Shown: positions 495 to 42,062 of the stretch, piece after piece
Numbering within the stretch: position 1 is the first letter of the stretch
How the letters are laid out: each line of letters begins with the position of its first letter
DNA from: Secundilactobacillus similis DSM 23365 = JCM 2765
GTDB lineage: Bacteria > Bacillota > Bacilli > Lactobacillales > Lactobacillaceae
DNA: 49,974 nucleotides
Assembly: GCF_001311075.1 (NCBI RefSeq)
Contig: NZ_BBAD01000017.1
Span: forward strand, 1 to 49,974
Reading direction: 5' to 3'
Translations under genes and position numbers: made by a program
The notes under the pieces: model-generated
Database searches by the model: none
What the model saw: the letters and a program-made list of their open reading frames with translations, nothing else
What the model was told of the DNA's origin: nothing

Positions 495-710
495 GAGAAG
501 GGCGGTTAGAAGGTGGTGTGCAAGCCAGGAAAGGCGAAATCCCCGGGTCTGGGATTTTGCCTTTCCTGGCTTGCATGCAACCTTCTGCCCTTCGGAACTC
601 GTTTCGGCGTAGCTGCCAGAAAGCACCATAGTAGCCACTCACTGAATAAATCAGCGTCCTAAAAAATACAGTCAAAAGCGGCGCCGAAACAAAGTAATCG
701 GAATGCACGT
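495..710 (+). repeat. Family A palindromic repeat, copy A1
   Basis: Outer arms GAAGGGC (497-503) and GCCCTTC (587-593) enclose AGAAGG/CCTTCT. Inside is an almost perfect 25-bp stem closing a short loop around 541-550. It is followed by TTTCGGCG (602-609) and, about 70 bases on, CGCCGAAA (682-689), then the tail AAAGTAATCGGAATGCACG. The same architecture recurs at 13801, 27380, 34586, 41501 and, inverted, 41821. Short reading frames inside are by-products of the palindrome. The rest of 411-981 holds nothing else I recognise. Confidence 0.85.
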
Positions 711-981
711 CGCGAATCGTACCCAGTAACCAGCGCTACTGACACACCTAGCTGATTGCAGTTCTTATTGAACACCTCACCCGCAGACTGTCCCGTTCCC
801 CAAGATTGACACCACCGCCCCAATCCTGTAAACTCACGGTACTAATTAAATCGCTAGTAGACCAATCATCATCGGGTGGTTGGAATAGGCATTTGCTTGT
901 AGTCGTAGATGCGACGCGCTTCATGGCGTCGAAGACTTCAAGGCAAGTGCCTTTTTGTTTGCGTAGAGGGAGAGTGACGTT

Positions 982-1605
982 GTGTCGGAAGTTATTTTAA
1001 AAGGAATGTTGATTAGTTTTGCGTTGGTGTCGTCGATTGGAATGCAAAACCTGTTTGTGTTTAACAACGCCATGAGTAATAAGCTTGGGCGGGCAATGTT
1101 GGTGGCAGGCTTTGTGTGGTTAGCGGATACGGCGCTGACGACGGTGGCCTTTCTTGGGATGGGCGCGTTGGTCAGCCGATATTTGTGGTTGAAGTTAGCA
1201 ATTATGCTGATTGGGGGCGTTATCGTGGCTTGGATGGGGTTTGGCATCTTACGGTCAGCTAACCAAATCGAGTTAGGTAAAGACGGGCAGCAGATGCCAC
1301 TAAAAGAGGCTTTTGTGACTGCGTGGGTCGTGGCTTTTGCGAACCCACAAGCCATTATTGATACCAGCGTGACGCTGGGTGCGTTACGTGGAACGTTGGA
1401 AAACTGGCAGGCGTTACCGTTCTTAGGCGGCATTGTTTTGGCGACGGCTATTTGGTTTAGTGGCATTACGTTGATCGTTGGTAGCTTGAAGAACCGGTTG
1501 CCGAAACGGGTGTTGATGTGGATCAACATTTTGTCGGGATTGATCGTGATGACTTACGGGGTTGTGCTGTTGATAAAGGCAGTTCAGATTCTGCTTCATT
1601 TATAG
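982..1605 (+). CDS. LysE/ArgO-family amino-acid exporter
   Basis: A 207-residue very hydrophobic protein with about six membrane spans, the usual LysE-family length. It opens with the typical N-terminal stretch ILKGMLISFALVSSIGMQN. The central cytoplasmic loop (IELGKDGQQMPLKEAFVTAW) is followed by an ANPQAIIDT motif that matches the conserved F-x-NP-x-x-x-x-D region. The family exports basic or other amino acids by proton exchange, and the substrate cannot be read from sequence. The start is GTG at 982, with an AGAGGGAGAG ribosome binding site before it. No regulator is adjacent, and element B1 begins about 10 bases after the stop. Confidence 0.85.
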   Translation: MSEVILKGMLISFALVSSIGMQNLFVFNNAMSNKLGRAMLVAGFVWLADTALTTVAFLGMGALVSRYLWLKLAIMLIGGVIVAWMGFGILRSANQIELGKDGQQMPLKEAFVTAWVVAFANPQAIIDTSVTLGALRGTLENWQALPFLGGIVLATAIWFSGITLIVGSLKNRLPKRVLMWINILSGLIVMTYGVVLLIKAVQILLHL

Positions 1606-1684
1606 ATTTAGATTGTCGTTTGTGTCCAGCGTAAGCATCTTCAGTTTGTGAAATGATTCTGGGGTTCTATAGTGGGAAGATGCC

Positions 1685-1876
1685 GCGGGAGGCTCCGGCG
1701 CTATGTGAGGCTGGAACGCAGTGGCGGGCCTACGAGCTAGGAATGGGCAAAACCCGCCCATGCCGGATCTCTCCGGACCCGCGTATGACATAAGGCACTC
1801 GCACCCCGAACCCCACGGGGCACGACTGCCTAAGTCATACCGACACTGCTGAGCCTCGCGCGCCTCCGCCTCCCGC
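1685..1876. repeat. Branched palindromic module D inside B1
   Basis: Outer arms GCGGGAGGC (1685-1693) and GCCTCCCGC (1868-1876) are extended inward by GAGGCT / AGCCTC and CAGTG / CACTG. The enclosed sequence folds into further hairpins. These are ATGGGC/GCCCAT near 1743-1762, CCGGA/TCCGG at 1763-1775, and a long arm pair GTATGACATAAGGCA (1783-1797) with TGCCTAAGTCATAC (1827-1840). The last of these encloses CCCCG/CGGGG. I see no second copy of this module in the window. Confidence 0.7.
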
Positions 1877-2211
1877 TACATGGTGCGTTGTTGGCAACCA
1901 GAATAGCTAACTATCACATGCTGAAGTTCACGCAACTACGTGCCGAAAACGTTAGATGGTAACTCGACAACTGCAGAAACGATTATGGTCAACGTTTCGT
2001 AACCACAACGAATCAACGATTGTGCTTGTGCGTTACGTTAGCATTAAGCGGGTATCGATGCCATATCCAGCACGATTATGAAACGGCAGTTGCTGTTCAA
2101 TTTTGTGTTTCTCGAATCAACGTTAGTGTTATTGCGATACCGCCGCAAGCTGTCTAGTTCAGCACTTGAAATGGTCTACAATGCTGCCGAATTGCGCCAA
2201 CGTAAGATGTA

Positions 2212-2391
2212 GGTAAGCGACTAGGTGTATGCTGTGTCGCGATGATTGGTGGTTGTCGGTGTTCTTCCGACAACCGCCAATCATCGGGGACAAATGTAAG
2301 ACTCGCACGGGTTTGAGCGAGGCTTACATTTGAGGTCTGAGACCGCTCTTTGGCTCAGGCCGGCCCCACAGCAGGAACCTAGTCGCTTACC
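2212..2391. repeat. Branched palindromic module of family B (copy in B1)
   Basis: Outer arms GGTAAGCGACTAGG (2212-2225) and CCTAGTCGCTTACC (2378-2391) are perfect complements. They enclose three hairpins. The first is a perfect-to-near-perfect 20-bp stem (2240-2259 with 2267-2286). The second is a 16-bp stem (2291-2306 with 2317-2332). The third is a short CTGAGACC/GGCTCAG stem (2337-2358). The layout equals that of 19428-19607 read on the other strand, with base pairs exchanged in matching positions. Confidence 0.8.
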
Positions 2392-2467
2392 GGAATCGCC
2401 AGTTCACGCAAATCAAACTTCACAAGTTAAACAGAAGAATGCTTACGCTGGACACAAACGTAAGCAA

Positions 2468-13800: not shown

Positions 13801-14005
13801 GAGTGTGCGGAGCGAGGCGGTTAGAAGGCGGCGTGTAATGGGCGCTCAGCTAAACTACCGGTTTTTGGTAGTTTGGCTGAGCGCCCATTACACATAGCCT
13901 TCTGCCTCGCGTAGCACTATTCGGCGTGGTAGCCAGAAGGCACGTGGTTGACAAACTCCTCCTACGTCAGGAACCCTAGAAATAACAACCCAAGCGGCAC
14001 CGAAT
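13801..14005 (+). repeat. Family A palindromic repeat, copy A2
   Basis: Outer arms GCGAGGC (13812-13818) and GCCTCGC (13904-13910) surround AGAAGGC/GCCTTCT and an inner stem of about 25 bp with loop GGTTTTT. TTCGGCG follows at 13920 and a degenerate partner GGCACCGAA at 13996-14004. The inner arm sequence is unrelated to that of A1, although the layout is the same. I see nothing else in 14005-14156. Confidence 0.85.
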
Positions 14006-22879: not shown

Positions 22880-23430
22880 GTGTGGTGATTTGCGTGGACT
22901 GTCGATTCCGGCAGGCGGCTAGGTTCCAGCTATGGGGACCGGCCTGAGCCAAAGGGCGGTCTCAGACCTCGAATTCAAGCCTCGCCAAACCCCGCGAGTC
23001 TTGAATTCGTCCCCGATAATTGGCGCAGTTCGACACTATCGCAAACATCTCAAGTACTTAACTGTGCGGTTGGCTACAAAATTGCAACAGTCAACTGTCA
23101 ATTCATTCTGAACGTTCATTCAACGTGCTTGATTGCACAGTGAATTTACGCTGTAACGTTGTCGTTCAGCGTCTATTGAGATGTTTGCGATTGTTATCAT
23201 ACGACAGTTTGGCCTTCATGATAAATTTTCGGGAGTGCGGTAATCGATGCCGAAAGCCCGCAAACAAGAGGTCGGTCAGAAAATTGGGCTCAGAATCGTG
23301 CCCGCGGCGTTCCAGCCAAATTTTCAGATCGACCGGTTGTGCCCACAATATCATCCATGATTAACGCGTCAACGAAGCCAAATTTCATAAACTTCGCACA
23401 CTATCGCCGGACACAAACGACAATAAAACA
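22880..23430. mobile_element. Family B element, copy B3 (internally deleted)
   Basis: It opens like B2 (GATTTGCGTGGACTGTCGAT), then carries the left outer arm and two hairpins of the branched module. The right half of the 20-bp hairpin and the right outer arm are missing. The junction is at a shared GCG, where GATAATTGGCG runs straight into CAGTTCGACACTATCGCA of the downstream connector. A different palindromic module follows (23270-23333, arms GGTCGGTCAGAAAATTGGGC and a near complement). The end is GCCGGACACAAACG. It holds no gene; the only open frames are by-products. Confidence 0.7.
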
Positions 23431-26377: not shown

Positions 26378-26398
26378 TGGGTTCTTAAAATAAACGTG

Positions 26399-26441
26399 AA
26401 ACGCCTCGAATTACTGAACAATTAGCAATTCAAGGCGTTTT
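26399..26441 (+). terminator. Intrinsic terminator
   Basis: AAACGCCTCGAATT pairs with AATTCAAGGCGTTT, followed by Ts. Confidence 0.8.
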
Positions 26442-26534
26442 TAAGCGATCAATTCAGTTGCCTACAGCTCAACTTGCAGTTCCAGCGATAACCCGTTACG
26501 CTTATAGGAAGATAACGGATAGACGGAGGACATT

Positions 26535-27368
26535 ATGACTAAATCGGTGGTTCAAAGAGGCTTGCGAATTATATTGGGGGCGGCGGTTTACGCAGTCGCC
26601 ATTAATTACTTTTTGATTCCAAGTCGAATTGGTGAAGGTGGCGTCACTGGCCTGACAACGATTGGGTACTATACGTTGCGCATCTCACCCGCGTTAACCA
26701 ACTTAGTGCTGAATGGCATCTTGATTGCGATCGGCTTTCGGTATTTAAAACGCGAAACGGTGTTTTACTCACTGTGGGCGGTGTTGTGGATCTCGATTTT
26801 CTTGCGAGTACCCGTTTTTTGGCCATATCAGACGCACCAAACGCTGATTGCGGCAATCACCGGTGGCGTGTTGATGGGTATCGCAATGGGCCTGATTTTT
26901 CGGGCAGGTGGCACGATTGCGGGGAGCACCATCCTGGCAAAAATCGTGAATCGCTACTTTGGCGTGCAAAACGGCTCAGCAATGCTGTTCTTCGACTTAA
27001 TCGTGGCGATTCCATCGGGACTCGTCATCGGGTTTGAAAACATGTTGCTAACGGTCGCCGAACTCTACATTTCAGCGGTGGTATTGAACAAATACCTCGA
27101 CACATTCGGCGCCAAACGCTCACTACTGGTCATCTCAGCGCAAAACCAAAAAATCGCTACGGCGCTGTCAGATAAGCTGGGTCATGGCGTAACGCTGTTA
27201 AAGGCAACCGGTTTCTACAAGCAACATAACCAAGACGTCCTGTACTTCATCTGCACGGTGCGCGAGTGGCCAGCAGTGATGACGATCATCAAGCAAACCG
27301 ACCCAGAGGCATTAGTGGTGACGGATCGGATTCGGAGTGTTCGGGGGATGGAGTTGGAGGAGTTATAG
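26535..27368 (+). CDS. YitT-family membrane protein with DUF2179 domain
   Basis: 277 residues. Five or so membrane helices in the first 185 residues include the family opener VYAVAINYFLIPSRIGEGGVTG and RAGGTIAGSTILAKI. A soluble C-terminal DUF2179 domain (LVISAQNQKIATALSD and VVTDRIRSVRGMEL) follows. Members are abundant in Firmicutes, and no transport substrate is established. GGAGGACATT stands before the ATG. The stop codon is followed within about 12 bases by repeat A3. Confidence 0.9.
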   Translation: MTKSVVQRGLRIILGAAVYAVAINYFLIPSRIGEGGVTGLTTIGYYTLRISPALTNLVLNGILIAIGFRYLKRETVFYSLWAVLWISIFLRVPVFWPYQTHQTLIAAITGGVLMGIAMGLIFRAGGTIAGSTILAKIVNRYFGVQNGSAMLFFDLIVAIPSGLVIGFENMLLTVAELYISAVVLNKYLDTFGAKRSLLVISAQNQKIATALSDKLGHGVTLLKATGFYKQHNQDVLYFICTVREWPAVMTIIKQTDPEALVVTDRIRSVRGMELEEL

Positions 27369-27379
27369 AGAGTAAAGAG

Positions 27380-27836
27380 AGTGGAACGAAGCGGTTAGAG
27401 ACCGGAGCATAAGCCCTCTCACCATAAACTCCGGTTTTTGGGGTTTGTGGTGAGAGGGGCTTATGTGCAGGTCTTTGCTTCGTGGAACTCATTTCGGCGC
27501 AGGCTAATCAAACTAGTCACGTGAACAAACTTCACGATGGTGTCAATCATTGCTAACTAAAGCCTAACTGGCGCCGAAATTACGTAATAGCAATGCGCGT
27601 TGCCAGCACCACTCATCAAATTAATGCGTCATCTGGTTTTTGGGGTTTGTGGTAAGAGGGGCTTATGTGCAGGTCTCTGCTTCGTGGAACTCATTTCGGC
27701 GCAGGCGAATCAAAGCACGCACGTTAACAAACTTCACTAAGTCACCGATAATCGCCAACTAAAGCCTAACTGGCGCCGAAAATAAGTAATCGCAATGCGC
27801 GTTGCCAACATCACTCAGCAAATTAATGTGCCATCC
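27380..27836 (+). repeat. Family A repeat, copy A3, with a 202-bp tandem duplication
   Basis: The hairpin at 27386-27484 has outer arms ACGAAGC/GCTTCGT and inner arms around CATAAGCCCTCTCACCA. TTTCGGCG (27492) and CGCCGAAA (27572-27579) follow, then the conserved tail. From the loop (27433) to 27634 the sequence is repeated as 27635-27836 with about 85-90% identity by eye. The second unit therefore has a 3' hairpin arm and tail without a 5' arm. Both tails end in the same CACTCA-CAAATTAATG-GCCATC type sequence. Confidence 0.8.
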
Positions 27837-27881
27837 GGTTTTCATGTCACCAACACCACACGTTTCCAAAATTCAGAAGCC

Positions 27882-27929
27882 AAAAAAGCCTCAGTTAAGC
27901 GCCAACCAAGCACTTAACCGAGACTTTTT
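27882..27929. terminator. Bidirectional terminator of the MFS gene
   Basis: CTCAGTTAAG and CTTAACCGAG pair around a 12-base loop, with A-runs and T-runs outside. Confidence 0.7.
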
Positions 27930-27945
27930 GAATATCAGTAACTCA

Positions 27946-29152: not shown

Positions 29153-29366
29153 GGACATCTTCCTTTCTGCGCGTGGTCTAGGTTGCGCTCTTTCCAATAT
29201 AAGCGTTTTTTAGGGGACTTGAAAGCTTAACTTAACAACTGGTCTACAGAAAACGGTTTCAGTGTTCGGTGATAGTTACGTGAACGACCCGAATCGCTGT
29301 AATCGACCTTCACAACTCGCAATTTTCAGCTTAAAATAAGTCAAATAAGAAAGTGATGGTGATTTT

Positions 29367-30488: not shown

Positions 30489-30562
30489 CGGGAGTGAAAG
30501 TTAAAGTTTAAGGTGCAATAGTCGTTAACACCGTGTCTTTTAATCGAGATTATTGTTTAAAT

Positions 30563-30654
30563 TTTAAAGAATGAAGCTACAAAAATGTAAAGAATGGAAC
30601 GACATTTTTGTAAAGAATCGACCGATAAATTTGTAAACTTTATTATTCGAAATA
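30563..30654. repeat. Iteron-like direct repeats, 23-bp period
   Basis: TTTAAAGAATGAAGC (30563), TGTAAAGAATGGAACGACA (30586), TGTAAAGAATCGACCGATA (30609) and TGTAAAC (30632) start exactly 23 bases apart. Three units are clear and the fourth matches only in its first six bases. Confidence 0.7.
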
Positions 30655-31032
30655 CTTATAAATACCGGTGCGATAATGATTAATTAGGTGCGATTTTTTA
30701 AATTAAAAAAGCGAATTATGAATCAAAATTTCATCGTGAATATAGTTTAAAAAACATAAATTTAATAACCCATTCGTCATTCTTTTAGGAGAGTGGACAC
30801 TGGATGAACTAGTGACAATTGCTCGTCCAGGTAAACAAAGTACCTTTTTGACAAGCTTTTTTAAAAGTACGCGGATGACTTTAATTTCGAAGAACCACAT
30901 GCTACAATTGCATCGGAAATCAAAAAGCCCGTGACGGGAATCACGGACTTAGTGCTAAAAGCGCAATGCTTACAGCGTGTAAGTATAACTTGGCGGCACT
31001 GCGATGGTATTTCTATAGAATTAAAAACATGA

Positions 31033-31056
31033 AGGACTGTGCCCGCAGTCCTTTTT
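31033..31056 (+). terminator. Intrinsic terminator
   Basis: AGGACTG and CAGTCCT pair around a 6-base loop, followed by a T-run. No clear gene precedes it, which hints that something in 30655-31030 is transcribed. Confidence 0.7.
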
Positions 31057-31289
31057 CTTTTGCTGTCATTTTTGATAAATGACCCAAACCGATAGACACA
31101 GAAAACTTCTAACGTATTGATTATAGTTGACTTAGTTGATAATCACAATTCGTGATAGTTTATGCCGTGAATCATATTTGATATAATGATTAAAGGATTG
31201 GTTACGGTTTCCCGCATCACCTGTTCATCGCGTCTAAAAAACCTTACCATCGAGTTAGTAAGAGACTGATTTGTTACGGGAGAGATGAC

Positions 31290-34200
31290 ATGTTAAGGAA
31301 AGTCTATAACAAATTTCCGGTGTGGCTCGTCTACACCGTGGCGTTTACGCTAGTTGTGGTGTGTTCGTTTGGCGTCCTGCGCTTTGGGGGTCAGACGACG
31401 ATTTGGAATGTGGATGGGATCGCACAACATTACCCGATTTTGGAACAATTCTATCGCATTTTAAGGGGAACCGCCCACCAGTCACTGTTCGGTTGGTCCT
31501 GGACGTTAGGCCTCGGGGCGGATCAGATGACGACCTTTGCCTACTACGTGGTGGGAGATCCGTTTAGTTATCTGATTGCGCTATTCCCCGCGGATCGACT
31601 GGAACTAGGGTATCAACTACTGACGATTTTACGGCTATACGTCGTGGGCTTGGCCTTTATCGCGTTCGCCAAACAACTCAAACTCAAACGGGGTGGGACC
31701 CTGATTGGCACGTTGGTGTACACCTTCGGCAGCTATTCGTTTTATTCAGCCTATCACCACCCGTTCTTTTTGCTGCCATTGATTTTCTTCCCACTGGTTT
31801 GTCTGGCAATTGATCGCATCTATCAGGGTAAATCCTTCCTGTGGCTCGTCGTGATCACGGCGCTCGTCTTGATTAGCAACGTCTATTTCGCTTACGTGTT
31901 AGCGATTGGCGCGTTGGTGTTTGCGATTATGCGCTACCTTGATCTGAAACTAAAGGGTGAGTTGGTTCGACCGCTACCTTGGTCGTTGCTGTACTTTGGC
32001 TTAACCGTCGTGATGTCAACGTTGATGGCGGCGGTGGTGCTGTTACCCAACATCTTAGGGATGCTCAGTTCATCTCGTTCGGGGAGTGCTATTTTTGCGA
32101 GCGGATTGAAGTTTTACCCGTCAATTTATTACACGCATTTGCCAAATGCGATTTTAAATTCCAATGGGACCACCTACTACTGGTTAGTGATGGGGACGAG
32201 TGGCCTGACGTTTATCGCGATGGTGTGGACTATGCGCCATTTTCGGCGGTATCTCATGTTAAATGTGACGTTGCTGCTTGTGGCGGTCGGGTTGCTATTT
32301 CCGGCCGTTGCGGCGGTGATGAACGTGATGAGTACGCCGTCTAACCGGTGGGTGTTGTTAGTCCATCTGGCATTTGGTTTAGCTGCCGGGCACTTTATTG
32401 ACCACTTGCACGAGCTGGAACCGGCGGACTTTAAGTGGTTTATGGTGGCAACGGCGATTTTGCTGGCGCTGGTTTGGGTCGGCAACGGGTTTATCTTTAA
32501 GTTGCCGCAACACCACTTGATGACGTATGGGCTGTTGCTGGGCTTTATGATCGTGCTCGCGTACGCCATTATGACCGGTGCGACGGGCTTGCGCTTGAAG
32601 TGGGCGTTGTTGGGGCTAGTGCTCCTCAACGCGGCTAGCACCGGACTGGGATTTTACAGTCCGAACTACGCTTACGCTTCTCGGAGTGAATTGAGTCGCG
32701 GCGTCGCTAGTCACTGGTCAAAGGTGTTTTTCGATAAGGCTGACCAGTATTTGAAGCAAACGGATACCAGTTTTTATCGAACCGCCACGACCAAGGACTA
32801 CTACACCCTGCACAGTGCCGGCAACAACATGCCGATGCTGCTGGGGATGCACCAAATCGGCTCGTATTTCTCGGTTCAAAACGCAGCGGTCAACAGCTTT
32901 AACACTCAACTGTGGAACAGTGAAAATACGATGAATAATCCGACAAGAAACGCTGATGAACGCACAACCATGTTGTCGCTGTTGGGGGTCAAATACCTCT
33001 TTGCGCGACAGGATGAAATCAATAAAAATCGCGTCCCGTATGGCTATCAAATAGTGCGACGACGAAATGGCAAAGCGGTCTTTCGGGACCATCCAGTTTA
33101 CAGTCTAGGCAACGGGACGGGCACGGTATTACTGAAAAACAAGTACGCGTTACCGTTAGCATACACCCAAACGACGCAGTTAAATGCGAGTGCTTATCGC
33201 AAGCTAAGTGCGGTAGATAAGGAACAGGCACTGCTAAGTGGTGCTCAAACGAGTCAAAAAGTTAGTGGTGTGAAGACGGTCACGGCAAAGCGGGCGAGTC
33301 ACACGGTACCGTATACCGTTTCGATGACTAGCCAGCCGATCACAACGCTCACCCAAGCCATTAACTATCGGTTGCATCACAACACCAATCGGTCACTGTC
33401 TTATGGCATTACCGGTGATAAAACACCGGCTGAGGCCGAGAAGTATGCCGCAACGACGAACCTGTTAAAGCCAACGTTATCCGTTACCAAATTGTTGGCC
33501 CAAAACGCGGCAGTGATTGCAAAAAATAATCAGAAAAACACTAACGGGTTAAAGGAAATGACCGGCGACCTGCTTGGTCAAAATGCGCAGTATCAGCTGA
33601 CGATTAACAACCCCAATTCGTTGAAGAATTGCGAACTGTATTTGGAAATCGATGGCATCAAAGCCCAGTTTCCATCAACGAGTGAGCGGTTGGGTTATAC
33701 GGCCACTCGCGCAAAGCTGGCGGACGTGCCATTCTCGCACGAAACTAAGTTGAATACGTTGCGGGAAATCAATACGTCACCGTACTTTGACTCCTACTTC
33801 CTGAACGTCCAGTCCGGCACGCACAAAACATCAATTGACCAGCTAGGTATCAACAACATGTCCGACTACGAACCGAAGCACCACTTGCTGATCAACTTGG
33901 GCTATTCAACGAAGGCCCGGCAAACGATTAATTTGAGCTTCTACAAGGCCAATAAATTGACGTTTAAGCACGTTAAGATCATTGCGGTCCCATTCGGTGC
34001 TACCTACCGAACGAAGACGCAGAAGCTGCAAAAACAGGCCTTAAAGCACCTAACCGTCACTAATAATCACGTGACTGGGACGACGAACCAAAGTCGAGCA
34101 AGCGTGTTAACGACCTCGATTCCGTATTCTAAAGGCTGGCAATTAACAGTCGATGGTCAAGCAACAGCGATTCAAAAGGTAAATACCGGCTTTATCGGCG

Positions 34201-34409
34201 CCAAAATTCCAGCTGGCAAGCACCACGTTAAACTGAGCTACACGACCCCAGGATTACTGGCAGGTAAATGGTTGTCGATTCTCGGCTGGTTCGTGTTATG
34301 CTTAGCAGCGGGTTGGACAATGTGGCGTGGCTTGATTAAACGCCGGCGACCAAATACTGGTCAACATGCGCAACCGATAGTCGAATCTGAAACGAACAAT
34401 GAGGAGTAA
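31290..34409 (+). CDS. YfhO-family membrane glycosyltransferase-like protein
   Basis: 1039 residues, intact. About thirteen membrane helices fill the first 480 residues and another lies near 995-1015; between them is a large extracellular region. The opening block WNVDGIAQHYPILEQFY followed by WSWTLGLGADQMTTFAYY is the YfhO/GT-C signature, with Asp in NVDGIAQ the likely catalytic-site residue. YfhO proteins are implicated in decorating lipoteichoic or wall teichoic acids with sugars from lipid-linked donors. ATG at 31290 lies behind GGGAGAG. A 44-residue membrane peptide gene follows at 18 bases. Confidence 0.9.
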   Translation: MLRKVYNKFPVWLVYTVAFTLVVVCSFGVLRFGGQTTIWNVDGIAQHYPILEQFYRILRGTAHQSLFGWSWTLGLGADQMTTFAYYVVGDPFSYLIALFPADRLELGYQLLTILRLYVVGLAFIAFAKQLKLKRGGTLIGTLVYTFGSYSFYSAYHHPFFLLPLIFFPLVCLAIDRIYQGKSFLWLVVITALVLISNVYFAYVLAIGALVFAIMRYLDLKLKGELVRPLPWSLLYFGLTVVMSTLMAAVVLLPNILGMLSSSRSGSAIFASGLKFYPSIYYTHLPNAILNSNGTTYYWLVMGTSGLTFIAMVWTMRHFRRYLMLNVTLLLVAVGLLFPAVAAVMNVMSTPSNRWVLLVHLAFGLAAGHFIDHLHELEPADFKWFMVATAILLALVWVGNGFIFKLPQHHLMTYGLLLGFMIVLAYAIMTGATGLRLKWALLGLVLLNAASTGLGFYSPNYAYASRSELSRGVASHWSKVFFDKADQYLKQTDTSFYRTATTKDYYTLHSAGNNMPMLLGMHQIGSYFSVQNAAVNSFNTQLWNSENTMNNPTRNADERTTMLSLLGVKYLFARQDEINKNRVPYGYQIVRRRNGKAVFRDHPVYSLGNGTGTVLLKNKYALPLAYTQTTQLNASAYRKLSAVDKEQALLSGAQTSQKVSGVKTVTAKRASHTVPYTVSMTSQPITTLTQAINYRLHHNTNRSLSYGITGDKTPAEAEKYAATTNLLKPTLSVTKLLAQNAAVIAKNNQKNTNGLKEMTGDLLGQNAQYQLTINNPNSLKNCELYLEIDGIKAQFPSTSERLGYTATRAKLADVPFSHETKLNTLREINTSPYFDSYFLNVQSGTHKTSIDQLGINNMSDYEPKHHLLINLGYSTKARQTINLSFYKANKLTFKHVKIIAVPFGATYRTKTQKLQKQALKHLTVTNNHVTGTTNQSRASVLTTSIPYSKGWQLTVDGQATAIQKVNTGFIGAKIPAGKHHVKLSYTTPGLLAGKWLSILGWFVLCLAAGWTMWRGLIKRRRPNTGQHAQPIVESETNNEE

Positions 34410-34426
34410 GCGGAGGAATGGGCCTG

Positions 34427-34561
34427 ATGAGTTGGTTATTACTGATCTTTATTGCGCTATTGCTGGTGACTAGCATTAGCTATTACCGTCACTGGACCTG
34501 GCCGTTTCGGTTGGGATTGTTGGCAACGTTGATTTATGTTGCGTGGCAGGTTGGTTTGTGA
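34427..34561 (+). CDS. Small two-helix membrane peptide downstream of yfhO
   Basis: ATG at 34427, 9 bases after GGAGGA, encodes 44 residues. Helix one is WLLLIFIALLLVTSISYY, a basic/aromatic turn RHWTWPFR follows, and helix two is LGLLATLIYVAWQVGL. The first ATG (34418) touches the ribosome binding site and is unlikely. Only 17 bases separate it from the yfhO stop, so the two are probably co-transcribed. Function unknown; an accessory subunit of YfhO is a reasonable guess. Confidence 0.65.
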   Translation: MSWLLLIFIALLLVTSISYYRHWTWPFRLGLLATLIYVAWQVGL

Positions 34562-34585
34562 TGACGTTGATTGGAAGTATGTAGA

Positions 34586-34825
34586 GCGCGAAGTAAGGCG
34601 TTTAGAAGGCGAAATATAAGGGCGGGCCAAGCGAAGCTACCGGTTTTTGGTAGGTTTGCTTGGCCCGCCCTTATATGCAGCCTTCTGCCTTACTTCGCGC
34701 ATTTCGGCACGGTGGCCTAGATGCAATATCGCTGACAAACTTCACAATGAATCAGGCAAGCGGAACGGCAAAGTTCAAGTGGCGCCGAAAACAAAGTAAT
34801 CGGAATGAGCGTCGCCAGTAAATCA
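34586..34825 (+). repeat. Family A palindromic repeat, copy A5
   Basis: Outer arms GCGCGAAGTAAGGC (34586-34599) and GCCTTACTTCGCGC (34687-34700) are perfect complements. They enclose AGAAGGC/GCCTTCT and an inner stem around ATATAAGGGCGGGCCAAGC with loop ACCGGTTTTTGGT. TTTCGGC follows at 34702, then GGCGCCGAAA at 34781-34790 and the tail AAAGTAATCGGAATGAGCG. This is the best-preserved copy. I recognise nothing further in 34826-35019 except a TACAAT -10 box near 34975. Confidence 0.88.
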
Positions 34826-35019
34826 TCGATGAGTAACGCAGCTATCGATTATCAGCCGATGTGCGTTTACCAATCTTCGGCCCCAAATTAACCAATACTA
34901 TTCCTTCAAACCCTGCCCCAAAGAATATTTCCCAGGAAATTCCCCAAACCAACCCAATCGCCAAGTCAACATGATACAATAGACGCTATGTTAATTTCGA
35001 ACCAAGGGGGATTTAAAAA

Positions 35020-35649
35020 ATGAACGCAAAATGGGTAGTTGGGATCATCGCAGGCATCATTGGCCTGGGTGCCATTCAAATCATTCATACAACGGCGCGA
35101 GCTGAAGCTGGGTATGCCGTGACCACGAAAACGGTGCGGGTCGGACAGATTACGGTGCCGAAGAATACGCGGGTTTCAGTTGCCAGTCAGGTGACCCATA
35201 ACGGGCAACGATACGCGCGCGTGGAGATGCAACGGTTGCGGTATCAGTTGCGGCGACAAACAAGCCGGCGGTATTTAACGGTGCCGATGCAGGACTTAAA
35301 AGCGAGTCGGCGGGTTGCAACCGATCAGTTTAGTCAGCTTAAGCAACGGCGAGTCAACTATGATACAACGCAGCCGGTCATCAACGTGACCACGGACGGT
35401 CGGGTGGAAATGTACCGAGATGGTAGCGTTGATAATCAAGCGCCAGTCGCAAGTGCGCAAGTTACCAAGAGTTGGCGCAGTGGCCAAACCACGGTGTTGA
35501 CGTTGAAGACGTCGTTAGCGCGACTAACGACTGCACATACGAATCAACTCAAACTACGGGCGAACGGGGCGGTTGCAAACGGGACTTACGATAGTTACGC
35601 AGTCGGGCCGCAACGGCAAATTTATTACGTATGGACGGGCTTATCTTAG
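35020..35649 (+). CDS. Secreted basic protein of unknown function
   Basis: 209 residues. An N-terminal hydrophobic helix (VVGIIAGIIGLGAIQIIHTTA) ends near ARAEA and looks like a signal peptide or anchor. The remainder is hydrophilic, beta-rich and basic, with YAVTTKTVRVGQITVPKNTR suggesting an SH3-like wall-binding fold. No catalytic motif is visible. AAGGGGGATTTAAAAA precedes the ATG. Family not recognised. Confidence 0.65.
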   Translation: MNAKWVVGIIAGIIGLGAIQIIHTTARAEAGYAVTTKTVRVGQITVPKNTRVSVASQVTHNGQRYARVEMQRLRYQLRRQTSRRYLTVPMQDLKASRRVATDQFSQLKQRRVNYDTTQPVINVTTDGRVEMYRDGSVDNQAPVASAQVTKSWRSGQTTVLTLKTSLARLTTAHTNQLKLRANGAVANGTYDSYAVGPQRQIYYVWTGLS

Positions 35650-35783
35650 CCGTAATAACGGGCGTTTCCGGCTGGAAGCGTCTTTTTATTTGTGGTCAAA
35701 TACCGCCTGCAACCAAGCGGTGCGACCAGCTTGATCACCATCATGCTATGCTTTGAGTGTTAACAAAAGAGGAGGAGTCAGAC

Positions 35784-36298
35784 ATGCACATCGGCGCCAG
35801 GTTAAAACAGCAGCGGCAACAGCGGGGGTGGTCGCAACAAGAGTTAGCGGATCAGCTCCATATTTCCCGCCAATCGATTTCAAAATGGGAACAGGAGACG
35901 GCGTTGCCAAGCTTCGCCAACGTGGTGGCGATGAGTGATTTATTTGGGGTGTCGTTAGAGAGTTGATTCGAAAGGATGAGGCATTGATGCGAGAATTAAA
36001 GGATGCGCAGCGGGTAACGCCCGTTGAGAAGATTGTGTGGAATAGCATTGGGTTAGCGGCCATCGTCATGATCGTAATGTTGGCGATGCGGATTGATTTC
36101 AACGTTGTGGACACGTGGTTTAACTGGGGCGCCTTTGTCTTACTGATTGTTTGGTTGTTTACGTTGAACTGGCGGGCGGTTAATCAGTTGCTTTCACGGA
36201 AATCGGTTGTGCTTGGCATCGTGGTGTTCACGTTGTATCTGATTCCGTTTATTTATTCGTTTATTCAGGGGTTTATTGCTGGGTTCACGGGACAATAG
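35784..36298 (+). CDS. XRE-type HTH regulator with C-terminal membrane helices, one frameshift
   Basis: The first frame (HIGARLKQQRQQRGWSQQEL, then LHISRQSISKWEQE) is a classic Cro/CI-type HTH and stops at 35966 after GVSLES. Restoring one base near 35959 gives VSLDELIRKDEALMREL, the usual linker, leading into three membrane spans that end at 36298. The joined protein has about 171 residues. Such membrane-tethered XRE proteins are common in lactobacilli, and their targets are mostly unknown. ATG at 35784 has GAGGAGGAG in front. A similar protein is encoded at 45369-45911. Confidence 0.82.
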
Positions 36299-36316
36299 AA
36301 ATTTTCGGGGAAACAT

Positions 36317-36362
36317 AAAAAGCAGGTCACTTACACAGCAACTGTGCGAGTGACCTGCTTTT
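36317..36362. terminator. Bidirectional terminator
   Basis: AAAAGCAGGTCACT and AGTGACCTGCTTTT pair between the convergent HTH-membrane and P-type ATPase genes. Confidence 0.85.
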
Positions 36363-36383
36363 AGTTATTGATTAGGTTGAAGC

Positions 36384-39114
36384 TTAAGCAATCTTATCCC
36401 GGTGCATCTTATCCCACTGCAACCGGCCAAGTTTGACGATTTCCGTCACAATCAGGACCACGATCCCAGCGATGATCGGTACTAACCAACCGTACGTGAA
36501 GTTCGCGCTGGTGGTGTGGAAGATGTCTTGCATGAATGGCAGGTAGATAATGCCCATCTGCAGGACAATCAAAGCGGCGATGATGTAGAAAGCCATCTTG
36601 TTTTGGAAGAAGTATTTTGAAATAACGGGGTGGTTATTCCGCAAGTTGAACAGGTAGAAAATCTTACCGAAGATCACCACGTTTAACGTCATGGTACTGC
36701 CGACTAAGGCACTGATACCGTGGCCAACTAAGGCGTCGTAGGCGAACATTCCTAACCCGGCAATCAGTAACGAGACGTAAACCACTTCGAACACGTCCAT
36801 CTTGGACAAAATCCCAGCCTTAACGTCTCGCGGACCACGAACCATGATGCCACTTTCGACCGGTTCGAAGATGAAGGCAAATTGAATCGTTAACGCTGAC
36901 ACCATGTTGATCCACAACAGTTGAGTTGGGTAGAGTGGCAACGATTGGTCCATCACGATACTGAGGACCACGATCAGACCTTCCGCGAAACTGGTTGGTA
37001 ACAGGAAGCGAATCGTCTTACGAATGTTATCGAAGACGTGACGGCCTTCCTTAACGGCGGCGAGGATGGTGGTGAAGTCGTCGTTAGCCAGAACCATATC
37101 GGCGGCACCCTTGGCCACATCGGTCCCCTTGATCCCCATGGCAACCCCAATATCGGCTTGCTTGAGGGCGGGGGCGTCGTTGACCCCGTCACCCGTCATT
37201 GAAACAACGTGACCGTTGGCTTGTTGGGCGCGCACGATTCGCAGTTTATCAGCGGGGGTGGTTCGGGCGAAGACGGTGTAACTATCGATAACGTTTTGAA
37301 GCTGTTCATCAGACAGTTCGTTTAATTCAGGACCGGTAATCGCCTTCGGATTATCGGCTAAATTCAGTTGCTTAGCAATGGCAGCGGCCGTTTCAGGGTC
37401 GTCACCGGTAATCATCTTAACTTGGATCCCAGCGAAGCGTAACTGCTTCACAGCGTCCGCAACTTCAGGACGAGGTGGGTCAATGATGCCGACTAACCCG
37501 ACAAGCTTTAAGCCGTCACCGATTTGGTTGGCATCGATCTCGGTAATTTCCCGGGACATGATTTGGTAACCCATCGCAACCACTCGCTTACCTTGGCGAG
37601 TCAGTTGGCTCATTTGATCAGCCATACTGCCGGCTTCAACTTGGCCACCGTGGTCTTGAACCAGTTTGGCCAAGGTTTGTGGCGCCCCTTTCACAAGGAG
37701 GACGCGTTGGTCGTTAAAATCAACTAATCGAGCGGAATAACGGAAAGCGGAGTCGAATGGTAACGAATCGATTTCAGCCGCTTCCGGGGTTTCACCAGTT
37801 AACTTATGGAAGAGGGCGGTCAACGCCCCATCGGTTGGTTCACCGGTCAGTTGCCACTGGTCATTTTCAAAGTTGAAGACGGCGTCAGAAGTCTGACCGG
37901 CGATTTCAACTAACCAGTTTAAGTTGTCGTTATGACGCCAATCGACTTCTTGACCATCAGTTGTCAGGACTTGACCAGCATCATCGTAGCCAACACCAGA
38001 AACGGTATATTGATTATCGGCGGTCAGAATATCGGTGACCGTCATTTCGTTCTTGGTTAAGGTCCCGGTTTTATCGGTGTTAATGATGTCCACGGCCCCC
38101 AGTGTTTCAACGGCGGGCAACGTTTTAACGATCGCGTGTTGCTTGGTCAGTTGACGGGTTCCCATGGCCAGCACCACTGAGGTACTAGCGGGCAGTCCTT
38201 CAGGCATTGACCCAACGACCATTGTGACGACGGCGATTAACAGTTGGTAAACTGTAAACTTGGATGATTGCACCCAGGATGAACAGTAACACGGCAGCAA
38301 TCACAATCGCTAAGGATAAGCCGAACCCTAACCGATTCAGGTTTTGCATTAACGGCGTTGGCTTTTCCTTGACTTCAGCAACATCTTGTTGGATCTTCCC
38401 AATTTCGGTGTGCGCACCAGTGGCAATCACGATCCCTAACCCAGAACCGCTGGTAACGGCCGTCGAGGCAAATGCCTGGTTGCGACGTTCAGCTAGTGGG
38501 AGGTTCGCGTCATCAATGGCGTCTTCGATCTTTTCCTGGGAGTCAGTTTCACCCGTCAACACGGATTCTTGAATCTTCAAGTTATCCGCGTCGATCAAAC
38601 GAAGGTCGGCTGGCACTGAATCCCCAGCCTCTAGTCGAACCAAGTCACCCGTAACTAATTCACGTGACGGTAACGTGGTTAATTGACCATCCCGGATCAC
38701 GAAGCTTTCCGAAACTAAGAGTTCCTTGATCTTGGAAAGGGCGTTATCCGCAGAAACTTCTTGGAAATACCCGATAAAGGCGTTCGCAATGATCACCAGT
38801 CCGATAACGATTGAATCGGAGTAGTGGTGCAAGAAGAAGGTCAAAATTGCGGCGGCCGCCAAGATGTAAATGATACTGTTATTGAATTGCTTCAAAAACC
38901 GCAACAAGTTAGACACTTTTTTAGCTTCAAGTTCGTTCGGGCCTTGTTGGTTCAGTCGTTTTGTTGCCTCATCAGTGCTGAGACCTGCTTGACCGTCCGT
39001 TTGCCACTGTTGTTCCAAACCAGAAGTACTTTGTTGCCAGACTTGTTGCTGACTGGGTCCAGCGTCAGCGCTGTCTTCAGTCGGAGTTGTTAATTGATTG
39101 TCATCTAATGCCAT
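36384..39114 (-). CDS. Type II cation-transporting P-type ATPase, one frameshift
   Basis: The N-terminal frame (39114-38200) and the main frame (38300-36384) overlap and join to about 910 residues. The break lies around 38235-38270, after LFILGAIIQVYSLP and before LLIAVVTMVVGSMPEGLPAS. Unlike other breaks here it needs two added bases or one removed. Motifs are TGETDSQEK, PEGLPAST in TM4, DKTGTLTKNEM, KGAPQ, TGDGVNDAPAL and TSFAEGLIVV. PEGLP is the PMCA/SERCA-like type, suggesting Ca2+ or Mn2+. It is divergent from mntH with possible MntR boxes between, which favours a manganese-linked role. The start ATG follows AAAGGATGA. Confidence 0.87.
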
Positions 39115-39147
39115 GTTAAAAAATCATCCTTTCGTGTGTGCAAGTGA

Positions 39148-39186
39148 TTAGCGATCTGGAATTACCAAATTGTAACGATCTTCCAA
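39148..39186 (-). CDS. Possible 12-residue leader peptide of the P-type ATPase
   Basis: On the minus strand AGAAGGGATTAAC precedes a TTG at 39186 that opens MEDRYNLVIPDR and stops at 39148, 34 bases before the ATPase ATG. The ribosome binding site has correct spacing. The coding part overlaps a hairpin (TTGGAA/TTCCA with GTTAC/GTAA). Translation of this peptide could therefore change leader folding. Such a short frame can arise by chance. Confidence 0.35.
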   Translation of the reverse strand: MEDRYNLVIPDR

Positions 39187-39282
39187 GTTAATCCCTTCTT
39201 TCAGTAGTGTTAATTAATAGATTATCTAAGCTATCGCATAAAGGCAAGCTAATTCTCTCGAAAATGAGACGTTTACTTTATT

Positions 39283-39294
39283 TTGGCTAGCCAA
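39283..39294. promoter_or_regulatory. Possible MntR (DtxR-type) box 1
   Basis: TTGGCTAGCCAA is a perfect 12-bp palindrome in the intergenic region between the divergent ATPase and mntH. It resembles box 2 in its centre (GGCTA-CC). Confidence 0.45.
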
Positions 39295-39382
39295 CTTTTT
39301 TATCTAATTCTATTAAATCACATCAAGACCGTGGTTGTAACTAAGAAAGCGCTTTTTCAAAACCAAGTTATACCATCTTTGG

Positions 39383-39399
39383 TTTAAGGCTACCCTAAA
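39383..39399. promoter_or_regulatory. Possible MntR (DtxR-type) box 2
   Basis: TTTAAGGCTACCCTAAA is a near-palindrome of the form expected for manganese repressors of the DtxR family. It ends about 30 bases before the mntH -10 box (TACAAT, 39429-39434). Confidence 0.5.
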
Positions 39400-39472
39400 A
39401 AGTATTTTAAAAATTAAATAAACTATTGTACAATGACTGTGATTTAAAAATTCATGAAGGGTGGTCATTCAA

Positions 39473-41059
39473 TTGGAGAATGAAAACGTCCCTCGCAAAC
39501 ATCGGTTGATCGAGTATGCGAACGGGAAATCACTAGAAGAGATCAACGGTACGGTCGAAGTGCCAAAAGGCAAGGGGTTCTGGAAAACGCTGTTTATGTA
39601 CTCAGGGCCTGGCGCGTTAGTTGCGGTGGGTTACATGGATCCTGGTAACTGGTCAACGTCCATCACCGGGGGCCAAAATTTCCAGTACTTACTGATGTCT
39701 GTTATCTTAATGTCAAGTTTGATCGCGATGTTACTACAGTACATGGCGGCTAAACTTGGCATCGTGAGCCAGATGGATCTCGCGCAAGCCATTCGCGCGC
39801 GGACCAGTAAATCATTAGGTGTTGTGTTATGGCTATTGACCGAATTAGCGATTATGGCGACGGATATCGCCGAAGTTATTGGGGCAGCGATTGCGCTGTA
39901 CTTGTTATTCCACATTCCATTGGTGATTGCGGTGTTCATTACCGTATTTGACGTTTTATTACTGCTATTATTAACCAAAATTGGATTCCGGAAGATTGAA
40001 GCCATCGTGGTTTGTTTGATTTTGGTCATCTTGTTTGTGTTCTTGTACCAAGTGATTCTGTCACGGCCTGATTGGGGCGGTGTTTTTGCCGGCTTGATGC
40101 CAACGACCCGGACGTTCTCCGGTTCAGAACACGTTGCGGGCATGACCCCAATTTCAGGGTCATTAGGGATTATTGGGGCAACGGTGATGCCACATAACCT
40201 CTACTTGCATTCAGCGGTTTCTCAATCACGAAAGATTGACCATACCGATGAAGAAGACGTGGCTCGGACGGTTCGGTTCTCAACTTGGGACTCAAACATT
40301 CAATTATCATTTGCGTTCGTGGTCAACTCATTGCTGCTGATCATGGGGGTTGCGGTCTTCAAGAGCGGTGCCGTTAAGGACCCATCGTTCTTCGGCTTGT
40401 TCCAAGCACTATCAGATACGTCAATGTTAAGTAACGGTGTGTTGATTGGCGTTGCTAAATCCGGTATTTTGTCCATTTTGTTTGCGGTGGCACTGTTAGC
40501 ATCTGGTCAAAACTCCACGATCACCGGGACGTTAACGGGTCAAGTGATCATGGAAGGATTCGTCCACATGCGGATGCCACTTTGGCTCCGTCGTTTGGTT
40601 ACCCGGTTGATTTCTGTGGTACCAGTGTTGATTTGTGTTGGGTTAACGGGTGGTCAATCCGCTATTAAGCAACACGAAGCCCTGAATAATTTGATGAATA
40701 ATTCGCAAGTCTTCTTGGCGTTCGCCTTACCATTCTCAATGTTGCCACTGTTGATGATGACCAACAGTGAGTTAGAAATGGGCAAGCGGTTCAAGAACAA
40801 CTTCCTAGTTAAGTTGTTTGGCTGGATCTCCGTTATTGCGCTCACGTTCCTGAACATGAAGGGCCTACCGGGTTCCGTTGAAGGATTCTATGGCGACAAC
40901 GCAACGAAGGCACAGTTGATGCAGGCTGATGTTATTGCATACGTCTTGATTGCGGCCGTCTTAGCATTGTTGGTTTGGACCATCTACGATCTGCATCGCG
41001 GTAACAAGCGGTTAGCAGCCAAGTTGAACGGCACGGATGAAGCCGCTACGGAGGCGTAA
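39473..41059 (+). CDS. mntH: NRAMP-family Mn2+/H+ symporter MntH
   Basis: About 528 residues, eleven to twelve spans. The metal-binding motifs are intact: DPGNWSTSITGG in TM1 and GATVMPHNLYLHSA in TM6 (Asp, Asn and Met ligands). It imports Mn2+, which lactobacilli accumulate as an antioxidant and enzyme cofactor. The start is uncertain. GTG at 39461 lies directly on the AAGGGTGG ribosome binding site, so TTG at 39473 is preferred. A universal stress protein gene follows after 7 bases, forming an operon. Confidence 0.93.
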   Translation: MENENVPRKHRLIEYANGKSLEEINGTVEVPKGKGFWKTLFMYSGPGALVAVGYMDPGNWSTSITGGQNFQYLLMSVILMSSLIAMLLQYMAAKLGIVSQMDLAQAIRARTSKSLGVVLWLLTELAIMATDIAEVIGAAIALYLLFHIPLVIAVFITVFDVLLLLLLTKIGFRKIEAIVVCLILVILFVFLYQVILSRPDWGGVFAGLMPTTRTFSGSEHVAGMTPISGSLGIIGATVMPHNLYLHSAVSQSRKIDHTDEEDVARTVRFSTWDSNIQLSFAFVVNSLLLIMGVAVFKSGAVKDPSFFGLFQALSDTSMLSNGVLIGVAKSGILSILFAVALLASGQNSTITGTLTGQVIMEGFVHMRMPLWLRRLVTRLISVVPVLICVGLTGGQSAIKQHEALNNLMNNSQVFLAFALPFSMLPLLMMTNSELEMGKRFKNNFLVKLFGWISVIALTFLNMKGLPGSVEGFYGDNATKAQLMQADVIAYVLIAAVLALLVWTIYDLHRGNKRLAAKLNGTDEAATEA

Positions 41060-41066
41060 ATCGAAG

Positions 41067-41504
41067 ATGACAAAAACTGATTTTAAGCACATTTTAGTTG
41101 GAGTTGATGATTCAGCGGATGCACTGTTAGCGTTTGATTACGCGATTCATACGGCACAGCAATTAGGTGCGCGTTTGACGATCGTCTCCGTGTTAGAGAG
41201 TCACGAAATGAGCGTCTATCAAGTAATGGATAAGGACTACATTCACGGTGAACGCCGGGAATTGGAAGCCCATATCCAAAAATACCTCCAGCAAGCACAA
41301 GCGGCGGGCATCGAAAACGTCAATGCTATCGTGTCGGAAGGCAATCCGGGGGAAACGATTGTGAATGATGTGATCCCGCACGTCAAACCGGACTTGTTAG
41401 TAATTGGTTCCATTGCCAAGAAGGGCGTTCAACGTCGCTTTGGGAGCCAAGCGGCTTACATGGCGAAGTATGCGCCGGTGTCGGTGATGGTGATTAGAGA
41501 GTGA
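41067..41504 (+). CDS. Universal stress protein, UspA family
   Basis: 145 residues, a single Usp domain. The first strand holds HILVGVDDSADALLAFDYA. The C-terminal VIGSIAKKGVQRRFGSQAAY then VSVMVIRE approximates the nucleotide-binding loop G-x2-G-x9-G-S. Usp proteins bind ATP or other nucleotides and appear under stress. It is co-transcribed with mntH. The ATG at 41067 has GGAGG 12 bases away, inside the end of mntH. The stop codon (41502-41504) lies within the first arm of palindrome A4. Confidence 0.9.
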   Translation: MTKTDFKHILVGVDDSADALLAFDYAIHTAQQLGARLTIVSVLESHEMSVYQVMDKDYIHGERRELEAHIQKYLQQAQAAGIENVNAIVSEGNPGETIVNDVIPHVKPDLLVIGSIAKKGVQRRFGSQAAYMAKYAPVSVMVIRE

Positions 41505-41640
41505 AAAGGCGCGGTTAGGGCCCAGAATATAAGACAAATAAAGCGTAGCACCCCGGGTTTGGGTGCTACGCTTTATTTGTCTTATATGGCCGGGCCCTGC
41601 GCCTTTTCACTCGTTTCGGCTAGATGACAGTATTGAAGTA
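41501..41640 (+). repeat. Family A palindromic repeat, copy A4, overlapping the usp stop codon
   Basis: Outer arms GTGAAAAGGCGC (41501-41512) and GCGCCTTTTCAC (41599-41610) are perfect. GGGCCC/GGGCCC and a 27-bp stem starting ATATAAGACAAATAAAGCG lie inside, with a short loop. TTTCGGC follows at 41613, but no CGCCGAAA partner or tail is found, so the 3' half is missing or replaced. Confidence 0.8.
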
Positions 41641-41692
41641 ATTGAAATAGCTTTGATGATGTATCAGTTAGGAAGTCACGTTCGATGCTTAC

Positions 41693-41737
41693 CCAGCAAA
41701 TCTTTACGACCACAATGTAGTAGTGAAGATTTGCTGG
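41693..41737. repeat. Isolated 12-bp inverted repeat
   Basis: CCAGCAAATCTT (41693-41704) and AAGATTTGCTGG (41726-41737) are perfect complements with a 21-base loop. No T-run follows. It lies between repeats A4 and A6 and its role is unknown. Confidence 0.6.
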
Positions 41738-41820
41738 AAAGTAGGCTAATGACGTAGCCGGTGTAATCGATGATCCGATACAAAGAGGTTTATATGTAGG
41801 AAACGTTGCGGTTGACCATA

Positions 41821-42062
41821 ACAGAGTGGTCCTGGCGACGTGCATTCTGGCAACGTTTGTTTCGGCGCCATTGGAGATTGAATGTTCCGGGATTTGACGA
41901 CAATGTATGTACTAATTCAAAACCTTTTCCCTTCACCACGCCGAAACGCGTTCGGAGAAGCAGAAGGTTATGTCTAAGGCGGGCCAAGCAAAAGTACCCA
42001 AAAACCGGGTACTTTCACTTGGCCGCCTTAGACGCCACCTTCTAACCGCTTCTCCGAACGCT
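41821..42062 (-). repeat. Family A palindromic repeat, copy A6, inverted
   Basis: Read on the minus strand, the hairpin (42062-41948) has outer arms CGTTCGGAGAAGC/GCTTCTCCGAACG. The inner stem contains GGCGGCCAAG-type sequence close to that of A5. CGTTTCGGCGTGG, then GGCGCCGAAAC at 41868-41860, then the AATGCACGTCGCC tail complete the family order. 42063-42183 holds only the ATPase promoter (TACAAT near 42133). Confidence 0.85.

Follow-up and report, generated by a model that had tools for sequence, protein, structure and literature searches.

We describe here a family of long imperfect hairpins in a 49,974-nucleotide stretch of Secundilactobacillus similis DSM 23365 = JCM 2765 (contig NZ_BBAD01000017.1; the whole stretch is hereafter called the window), which belongs to a 3.45-Mb draft genome of 176 contigs. 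We propose, with a probability of roughly two in three, that these hairpins are a non-autonomous mobile element resembling repetitive extragenic palindromic (REP) sequences, with a shape under selection and with arms that are rewritten through template switching and through exchange between copies. An earlier note on the window had described six dispersed hairpins sharing one architecture and proposed a covariance model of the copies. Such a model, R1, was built from 35 hairpins of the same genome (source alignment A1, which includes the window copies at 486, 34582, and 41939 on the minus strand and excludes those at 13801, 27375, and 41495) and was run on the genome and its relatives. In the window it recovered all six copies at the places flagged earlier, as end-to-end matches of 108 to 126 bits, and the shared architecture is thus borne out. 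The reverse strands of the six copies score 39 to 60 bits and the remaining hairpins of the window 11 to 27 bits.

The element is built in a near-fixed order, namely, NAGA, 4 bp, a 3x3 loop, 7 bp, a 4-nt left bulge, 7 bp, a second 3x3 loop, an inner stem, a short loop, and mostly GTTTCGGC. We read 99 distinct copies in the genome of the window; they come from 104 matches, and the 82 sources searched were the window plus 81 other loci of this genome (further, mostly overlapping loci were left out). Their first tag letters are TAGA in 52, CAGA in 20, GAGA in 13, AAGA in 8, and others in 6; the bulge is GGTT in 55, GTTT in 19, and GCTT in 12; the outer loop is GGA/GGA in 58 and the inner loop GGA/GCA in 64. 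Parsing assumed a 4-nt bulge, and when it was repeated with the bulge length left free (0 to 8), 4 nt was best in 97 of the 99 copies, one copy preferring 3 and one 6. The inner stem, previously put at about 25 bp, ranges from 24 to 31 bp. Tail-bearing copies continue with TTTCGGCG, ~70 nt, GGCGCCGAAA, and a tail. This extension, first attributed to all six window copies, is present at 495, 27380, 34586 (as TTTCGGCA), and 41821; the 13801 copy has it in degenerate form, and the 41501 copy is without it, GTTTCGGCTAGAT leading there into other sequence in place of body and tail. Second units of tandem pairs have no left arm and begin at the apex of the hairpin; the one in the window (27630 to 27833) is 87% identical to the 202 bp preceding it.

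Pairing is maintained while the letters change. Among the 35 aligned copies, 97.5% of cells are paired versus 72.4% after shuffling, a value reached by none of 500 shuffles (which do not keep the relatedness of the copies), and both-sided changes occur at 35 of 42 pairs. The covariation score is 0.726 versus 0.241 in shuffled alignments and at most 0.152 with a slid partner, and sliding the partner by 1 to 3 columns lowers pairing to 35 to 53%. The arms had been said to differ completely; they are instead position-by-position variants in which some pairs, e.g., AAG/CTT, are invariant. Covariation was also looked for in the body (TTTCGGCG/CGCCGAAA), and none was seen.

In none of the 99 copies is the inner 3x3 loop fully complementary. 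Arm copying alone would erase this loop, yet both the loop and the 4-nt bulge are kept, which argues for selection on the structure. Altogether, the structure is very likely selected. Moreover, the non-Watson-Crick pairs of the inner stem are G-U in 108 cases and C-A in 6 (90 copies, first pair excluded), an excess indicating that the folding strand is the gene-sense strand; RNA and single-stranded DNA both fit.

The outer helices carry the signature of arm rewriting. G-U pairs occupy 14 of 1422 cells (1.0%) of the outer 18 bp, versus 91 of 549 (16.6%) in the signal recognition particle (SRP) RNA of 25 family genomes, our control (25 of 30 fetched loci, five without the motif being dropped, from 57 matching genomes, two over the family cut-off). 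Between nearest copies (90 of 99 rows, those with a parse score of 31 or more, identical ones being merged), we counted 126 two-sided and 15 one-sided changes in the outer helices, against 24 and 29 in SRP RNA (Fisher p 6e-10); the inner stem gave 182 and 78. The outer 3x3 loop has 0 complementary positions in 70 copies, 1 in 13, 2 in 3, and all 3 in 13, and these 13 fully complementary loops comprise five different sequence combinations, arguing for block replacement more than for stepwise repair. On plasmids of L. paracasei, the longest exact arm complement of one hairpin, B, is 28 nt in L1 p1 (B2) versus 9 nt in pWX3; the left arm of L1 p1 B2 exactly complements the right one, and the consensus GGA/GCA loop is lost. 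The scarcity of outer G-U intermediates together with this 28-nt complement points to arm regeneration, and the template-switch prediction, as laid out by Monttinen and Loytynoja (2022, PMC8794818), matches the arm pattern seen in pWX3 and L1 p1. The earlier proposal that the structure is selected or actively regenerated is thus supported, with evidence for each half.

Whole hairpins also differ within otherwise near-identical DNA. At the phosphotransferase system (PTS) IIC-IIB site, the flanks of L. paracasei MGB0245 and MGB0734 are identical at 709/714 and 499/500 bases, and the hairpins between them differ by 24 mismatches and 5 gap positions. Pediococcus BC1 matches MGB0245 at 711/714 bases on the left, with 10 mismatches and 4 gaps on the right. 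The MGB0245 hairpin differs from those of MGB0734 and BC1 at 24 and 23 of ~110 positions, respectively; between the latter two hairpins there are one mismatch and two gaps. Different hairpins within near-identical flanks suggest exchange between copies. In 89 copies of the genome of the window, the distances of the arm modules correlate weakly (Spearman 0.13 for outer-inner, 0.18 for outer-middle, and 0.37 for middle-inner), and the tandem pairs L006 and L028 each have the outer right arm and the body in common and different inner stems.

Mobility is suggested by the copper-oxidase site on plasmids of L. plantarum and P. pentosaceus (239 records, of which 3 empty and 5 filled were viewed). The empty plasmids (P-8, MF1298, and that of P. 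pentosaceus) read TTGTCAG/AGGGGG across the site (the slash marks the insertion point), which is filled in the five viewed L. plantarum plasmids. In X7021, a 118-bp insert sits between CAG and AGGGGG; no duplication is visible, a 2-bp one (AG) being beyond resolution. Compared with the three empty records, 120 to 123 of 130 bases match on the left flank and 283 to 290 of 300 on the right. The filled state would be a gain, a polarity that we infer. Movement of the IS200/IS605 type usually leaves no target duplication.

Copies also decay. L. paracasei L1 p2 has lost 57 nt between two GCGGT repeats in a hairpin still intact in L. rhamnosus k32, the remaining DNA being 99.9% identical. In two sister species (G007 and G012), whose long syntenic blocks are mostly 83 to 92% identical, one element of G012 is cut down to about its first 16 nt relative to G007, and the arms of a shared element differ by a paired insertion. 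Deletions inside the palindrome thus leave remnants, and perhaps explain the half units too. At the man locus, where three of six State 0 records were viewed, the states are not polarizable. Besides, on a 6.3-kb plasmid of L. plantarum (L321:1235-1358), homology starts right after the right end of the element in 36 listed plasmids that have only the neighboring toxin-antitoxin module in common with it, and this end may be a junction of plasmid modules.

The element is tied to gene ends. The TAG of its TAGA is the stop codon of an upstream sense open reading frame (ORF) of at least 60 codons in 28 of the 99 copies, and in 23 others the stop lies 1 to 12 nt upstream, 20 of these being TAG; hence, 48 copies have a TAG stop at their start or within 12 nt before it. 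In 8 copies the stop lies up to 25 nt inside the element. TAG is used in 27 of 33 cases with an AGAGNG motif at the stop versus 9 of 41 without, a comparison that is slightly circular because TAGAG contains AGAG. At the uspA copy, the gene ends ATT AGA GAG TGA and relatives end Ile-Arg-stop; this difference would be expected if the unit had entered behind a pre-existing TAGA. Like hairpins stand at this site (41495) in 4 of 11 congener loci, a fifth being possible, and the site of the 27380 copy is occupied in 5 of 12 genomes, its own counted. Of the 15 genus genomes, 12 were readable at one convergent intergenic site: 8 hold elements of at least three kinds or reversed (by eye) and 4 hold plain terminators, and in each of the 12 the gene keeps its full length, its final 120 residues aligning right up to the end. 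The gene is untruncated at the compared insertion sites. A sister family (GGTAGATTCCAGAATTTAA; loci L087-L116, L093 being from the genome of the window) is matched 8 to 67 times per genome in seven congeners and once in the genome of the window; seven other congeners show no match. By eye, it has the inverted ends TGTGACA/TGTCACA and an inner stem resembling a bidirectional terminator, and some of its copies occupy the entire space separating two convergent stop codons.

Extrapolation from six copies in 50 kb gives ~415 copies per genome. In the genus, for which R1 counts cover the best 150 candidates per genome and may include both strands of some hairpins, all 15 genomes match, with from 2 to at least 150 matches each; the genome of the window (150 of its 150 best candidates) and G006 reach at least 150. 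At E 1e-6 and among the best 21 candidates per genome, the family Lactobacillaceae yields matches in 72 of the 161 genomes and 21 of the 40 genera covered, and an order-wide draw does so in 10 of 198 genomes, four of them outside the family. Some genomes of lactic acid bacteria probably carry hundreds of copies. The genome of the window carries the tail pattern at 55 places (56 matches, one place on both strands), whereas 0 of 40 relatives carry it; eight scattered matches in metagenome-assembled genomes of a contig collection were attributed to chance (3 to 4 expected, a rough estimate). Restriction to a single species was considered and rejected for the class, as the tail pattern marks only the tail of this genome and R1 is broader. 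The family copy L206 matched 15 plasmids of Lactiplantibacillus and Lacticaseibacillus by blastn, and three other element queries gave none in plasmid and phage searches. G016 and G291 (L214 and L216) contain head-to-tail arrays of complete hairpins with a period of ~125 to 133 bp (e.g., G016:C1:16171-16570 and G291:C21:319704-319953).

We propose the following model. The unit is ~118 bp long and composed of NAG, AG, a hairpin of near-rigid geometry, and GTTT, to which many copies of this genome add body and tail. Its folded gene-sense strand, as single-stranded DNA in transposition or as RNA, would be recognized, so that bulge, loops, and lengths are kept. When replication meets the hairpin, the new strand could template one arm from the other, resulting in strict Watson-Crick pairing with new letters, and whole hairpins would be swapped among copies. 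The unit would insert without visible target duplication, often at or just behind a TAG stop.

Several observations weigh against this model. The end of the upstream sense ORF is far away in 23 of the 99 copies and none is nearby in 17. The outer helices show a weak strand bias (14 G-U versus 8 C-A), G-U is tolerated at some positions of the inner stem, and two plasmid copies of other species (pWX3 A and L1 p1 B2) have lost the inner loop, so that the inner-loop rule is not absolute. The direction of the B1/B2 change would depend on the consensus GGA/GCA loop being ancestral, and the arm-body correlation is 0.01 to 0.06, a value computed without alignment and hence of little weight. As for mobility, the base-by-base alignment covers a single clean empty site, immediately to the left of which filled and empty records disagree (TTTGATTCAG when filled, TTTTTGTCAG or TTCTTGTCAG when empty); the State 0 plasmids of the man locus could equally stem from pWX3 by deletion across a 14-bp repeat. 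The PTS and L308 sites were considered as empty sites and rejected, both being deletion remnants, and the PTS case counts on this negative side. Lastly, no mobilizing gene was identified, Y1 transposases being the gene family searched.

That the hairpin is a structured RNA of 3' untranslated regions (a terminator, stability, or processing element) and that this RNA is what selection sees, spread being secondary, seems unlikely to us. Such an element would begin at the stop so that terminating ribosomes sit on the hairpin base, and it would fit the sense-strand folding and the stop codon tie reported above, to the detriment of our model. The sister family, with its A/T-run stems resembling bidirectional terminators (by eye), and the plain terminators found at the same sites in other species also agree with it. 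However, the 1.0% of G-U in the outer helices, set against 16.6% in SRP RNA, is unusual for RNA-level selection, and a long U-tract is missing from most viewed inner stems of this genome, whose right arms mostly show no long T run. Moreover, the copper-oxidase copy stands immediately before a gene rather than at a 3' end, and terminator-like hairpins remain next to some copies (by eye). A terminator scan of positions 26000 to 45000 predicted one in the 41495 copy (minus strand) and a weak apical one in that at 34582. That pairing is kept by ordinary compensatory mutation alone, with strong selection against mismatches and wobbles and no templated copying, is likewise improbable in our view. 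Such a process would account for the bulge (4 nt in 97 of 99 copies), for the inner loop present in all 99, for the G-U states of the inner stem, and for the partial complementarity of 16 of the 99 outer loops; it is at odds with the predominance of two-sided changes in the outer helices, with the full-complement replacement of 13 outer loops, and with the 28-nt exact complement of B2 facing 9 nt in its near twin.

With regard to the mobilizing agent, the hairpins could be a classical REP family moved by a Y1 transposase (REP-associated tyrosine transposase [RAYT] or IS200-IS605) cutting beside the AG tag without target duplication, which we find rather doubtful. The tag adjoins an imperfect hairpin and its TAG acts as a stop, as in the GTAG REPs described in PMC3733652, the copper-oxidase site shows no visible duplication, and the genome of the window has one Y1 gene. 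However, the Y1/REP-type transposase that had been envisaged as a partner shows no association with the element across the 161 family genomes (Y1 genes occur in 45 of them, namely, in 24 of the 72 with the element and 21 of the 89 without it; Fisher p 0.22), and 10 of the 13 genomes with at least 21 element matches have no Y1 match. Classical RAYT mobilization is thus not supported, and the tag, NAGA rather than GTAG, and the far longer unit also depart from it. Equally doubtful is an element without any enzyme of its own, whose hairpin would provoke template switching during replication, thereby both repairing the arms and copying the unit to AG microhomologies; if true, the element would live on host replication errors. 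Finally, the view that ordinary long hairpins or terminators are alike by chance is refuted: terminators are frequent at gene ends and some score weakly with R1, yet the other hairpins of the window stay far below the six copies and the covariation exceeds that of every shuffle.

Our model of a REP-like mobile hairpin can be compared with known systems. As with GTAG-tagged REPs and REPINs with RAYTs, a short tag stands by an imperfect hairpin, copies are many, dispersed, and often near gene ends, the TAG of the element serves as a stop in 28 of 99 copies with 20 more TAG stops just upstream, and insertion at the one empty/filled site left no visible duplication (the 2-bp AG apart). According to PMC3733652, the ends of GTAG REPs often supply TAG stops to flanking ORFs, and CGTC REPs seem to be without a dedicated transposase. 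The element differs by its length of ~118 bp versus 20 to 40 bp for REPs, by its near-fixed multiloop geometry, by the NAGA tag, and by the lack of association with Y1 genes; as it fails on length, tag, and Y1, we consider it REP-like and not a REP of that system. It is small, noncoding, dispersed, and apparently mobile, with a palindrome making up almost the entire unit, arms that seem to be rewritten, and hairpins that seem to be exchanged. Miniature inverted-repeat transposable elements are defined by terminal inverted repeats and target site duplication; the one aligned site shows no visible duplication within the same 2-bp limit, and inverted ends were seen by eye in the sister family of congeners. 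Like the template-switched RNA hairpins reported in PMC8794818, the element shows multibase compensatory changes without G-U intermediates that turn one arm into the complement of the other; those concern RNA genes and reconstructed ancestral histories, whereas here we deal with a dispersed, apparently mobile element and near-identical plasmid loci. Bidirectional intrinsic terminators are found at the sites of the element in congeners, and the inner stem of the sister family looks like them; the element departs from them by its conserved outer frame, bulge, and loops and by the absence of a long U-tract in most viewed copies of the genome of the window. In open-licence papers, which our literature search covered, we found no description of this element in lactobacilli; the word Firmicutes is absent from the main text of PMC3733652, and the genomes named in PMC2267715 include one lactobacillus, L. 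johnsonii.

Table 1. Positions of the hairpin copies of the window and of their associated parts
Feature	Position	Strand	Description and basis
Hairpin copy 1	486..609	+	R1 124.3 bits, full length; A1 member (L002:486-609); order TAGA, 4 bp, 3x3 loop, 7 bp, bulge GGTT, 7 bp, inner loop, inner stem ~26 bp, loop, right arm, GTTTCGGCG
Copy 1, body and tail	602..733	+	TTTCGGCG ... GGCGCCGAAA (602-689), CAAAGTAATCGGAATGCACGTCGC; pattern matches, sequence
Hairpin copy 2	13801..13926	+	R1 124.2 bits; outside A1
Copy 2, degenerate body	13919-13926, 13994-14004	+	ATTCGGCG and GCGGCACCGAA, respectively; sequence
TAG stop of gene 26535-27368	27366..27368	+	Within the repeated TAGAGAGTAAAGAGAGTGG start of copy 3
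Hairpin copy 3	27375..27499	+	Full unit of tandem pair; R1 126.1 bits; outside A1; body 27492-27579
Half unit after copy 3	27630..27833	+	Apex, right arm, body (27694-27781), and tail, without left arm
Hairpin copy 4	34582..34709	+	R1 123.1 bits; A1 member; outer 3x3 loop now full complement GAA/TTC
Copy 4, body and tail	34702..34816	+	TTTCGGCA ... GGCGCCGAAA, tail AACAAAGTAATCGGAATGAGCGTCGCC; sequence, repeat match
Hairpin copy 5	41495..41621	+	R1 108.3 bits; outside A1; inner loop of AGA/GGCC type; outer loop GAA/TTC fully complementary; without GGCGCCGAAA body; at end of uspA-like gene 41037-41504, reading ATT AGA GAG TGA
Hairpin copy 6, inverted	41939..42065	-	R1 116.6 bits; A1 member (L024:1580-1706:-); outer loop TCG/CGA fully complementary
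Copy 6, body and tail	41821..41946	-	Body 41860-41946; pattern matches, sequence

At gathering score, Rfam models matched the window only at a flavin mononucleotide (FMN) riboswitch (46157 to 46311), downstream of which an ORF (48094 to 49230) matches the RibA/RibB families, and matched none of six congener loci; at E values up to 5, four loci of the genome of the window gave sub-threshold matches only, mostly to microRNA families. The window also contains a second dispersed repeat family with ends TTACGCTGGACACAA / TTGTGTCCAGCGTAA (1607-2471, 19337-19839, 22886-23030, 23287-23428, and 49815-49959), whose copy at 19337 opens with a hairpin bearing a CCGGTTTTAGG loop and gives a partial R1 match of 26.6 bits.

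How long stems evolve, by stepwise compensation or by templated copying, remains debated, and the element makes this question countable and open to tests in food-grade bacteria, since it supplies many paralogues per genome as well as near-identical plasmids with different arms; the half units may preserve older arm states. Our study also adds to this lineage a family-wide REP-like element that gives stop codons to genes and sits where terminators act.

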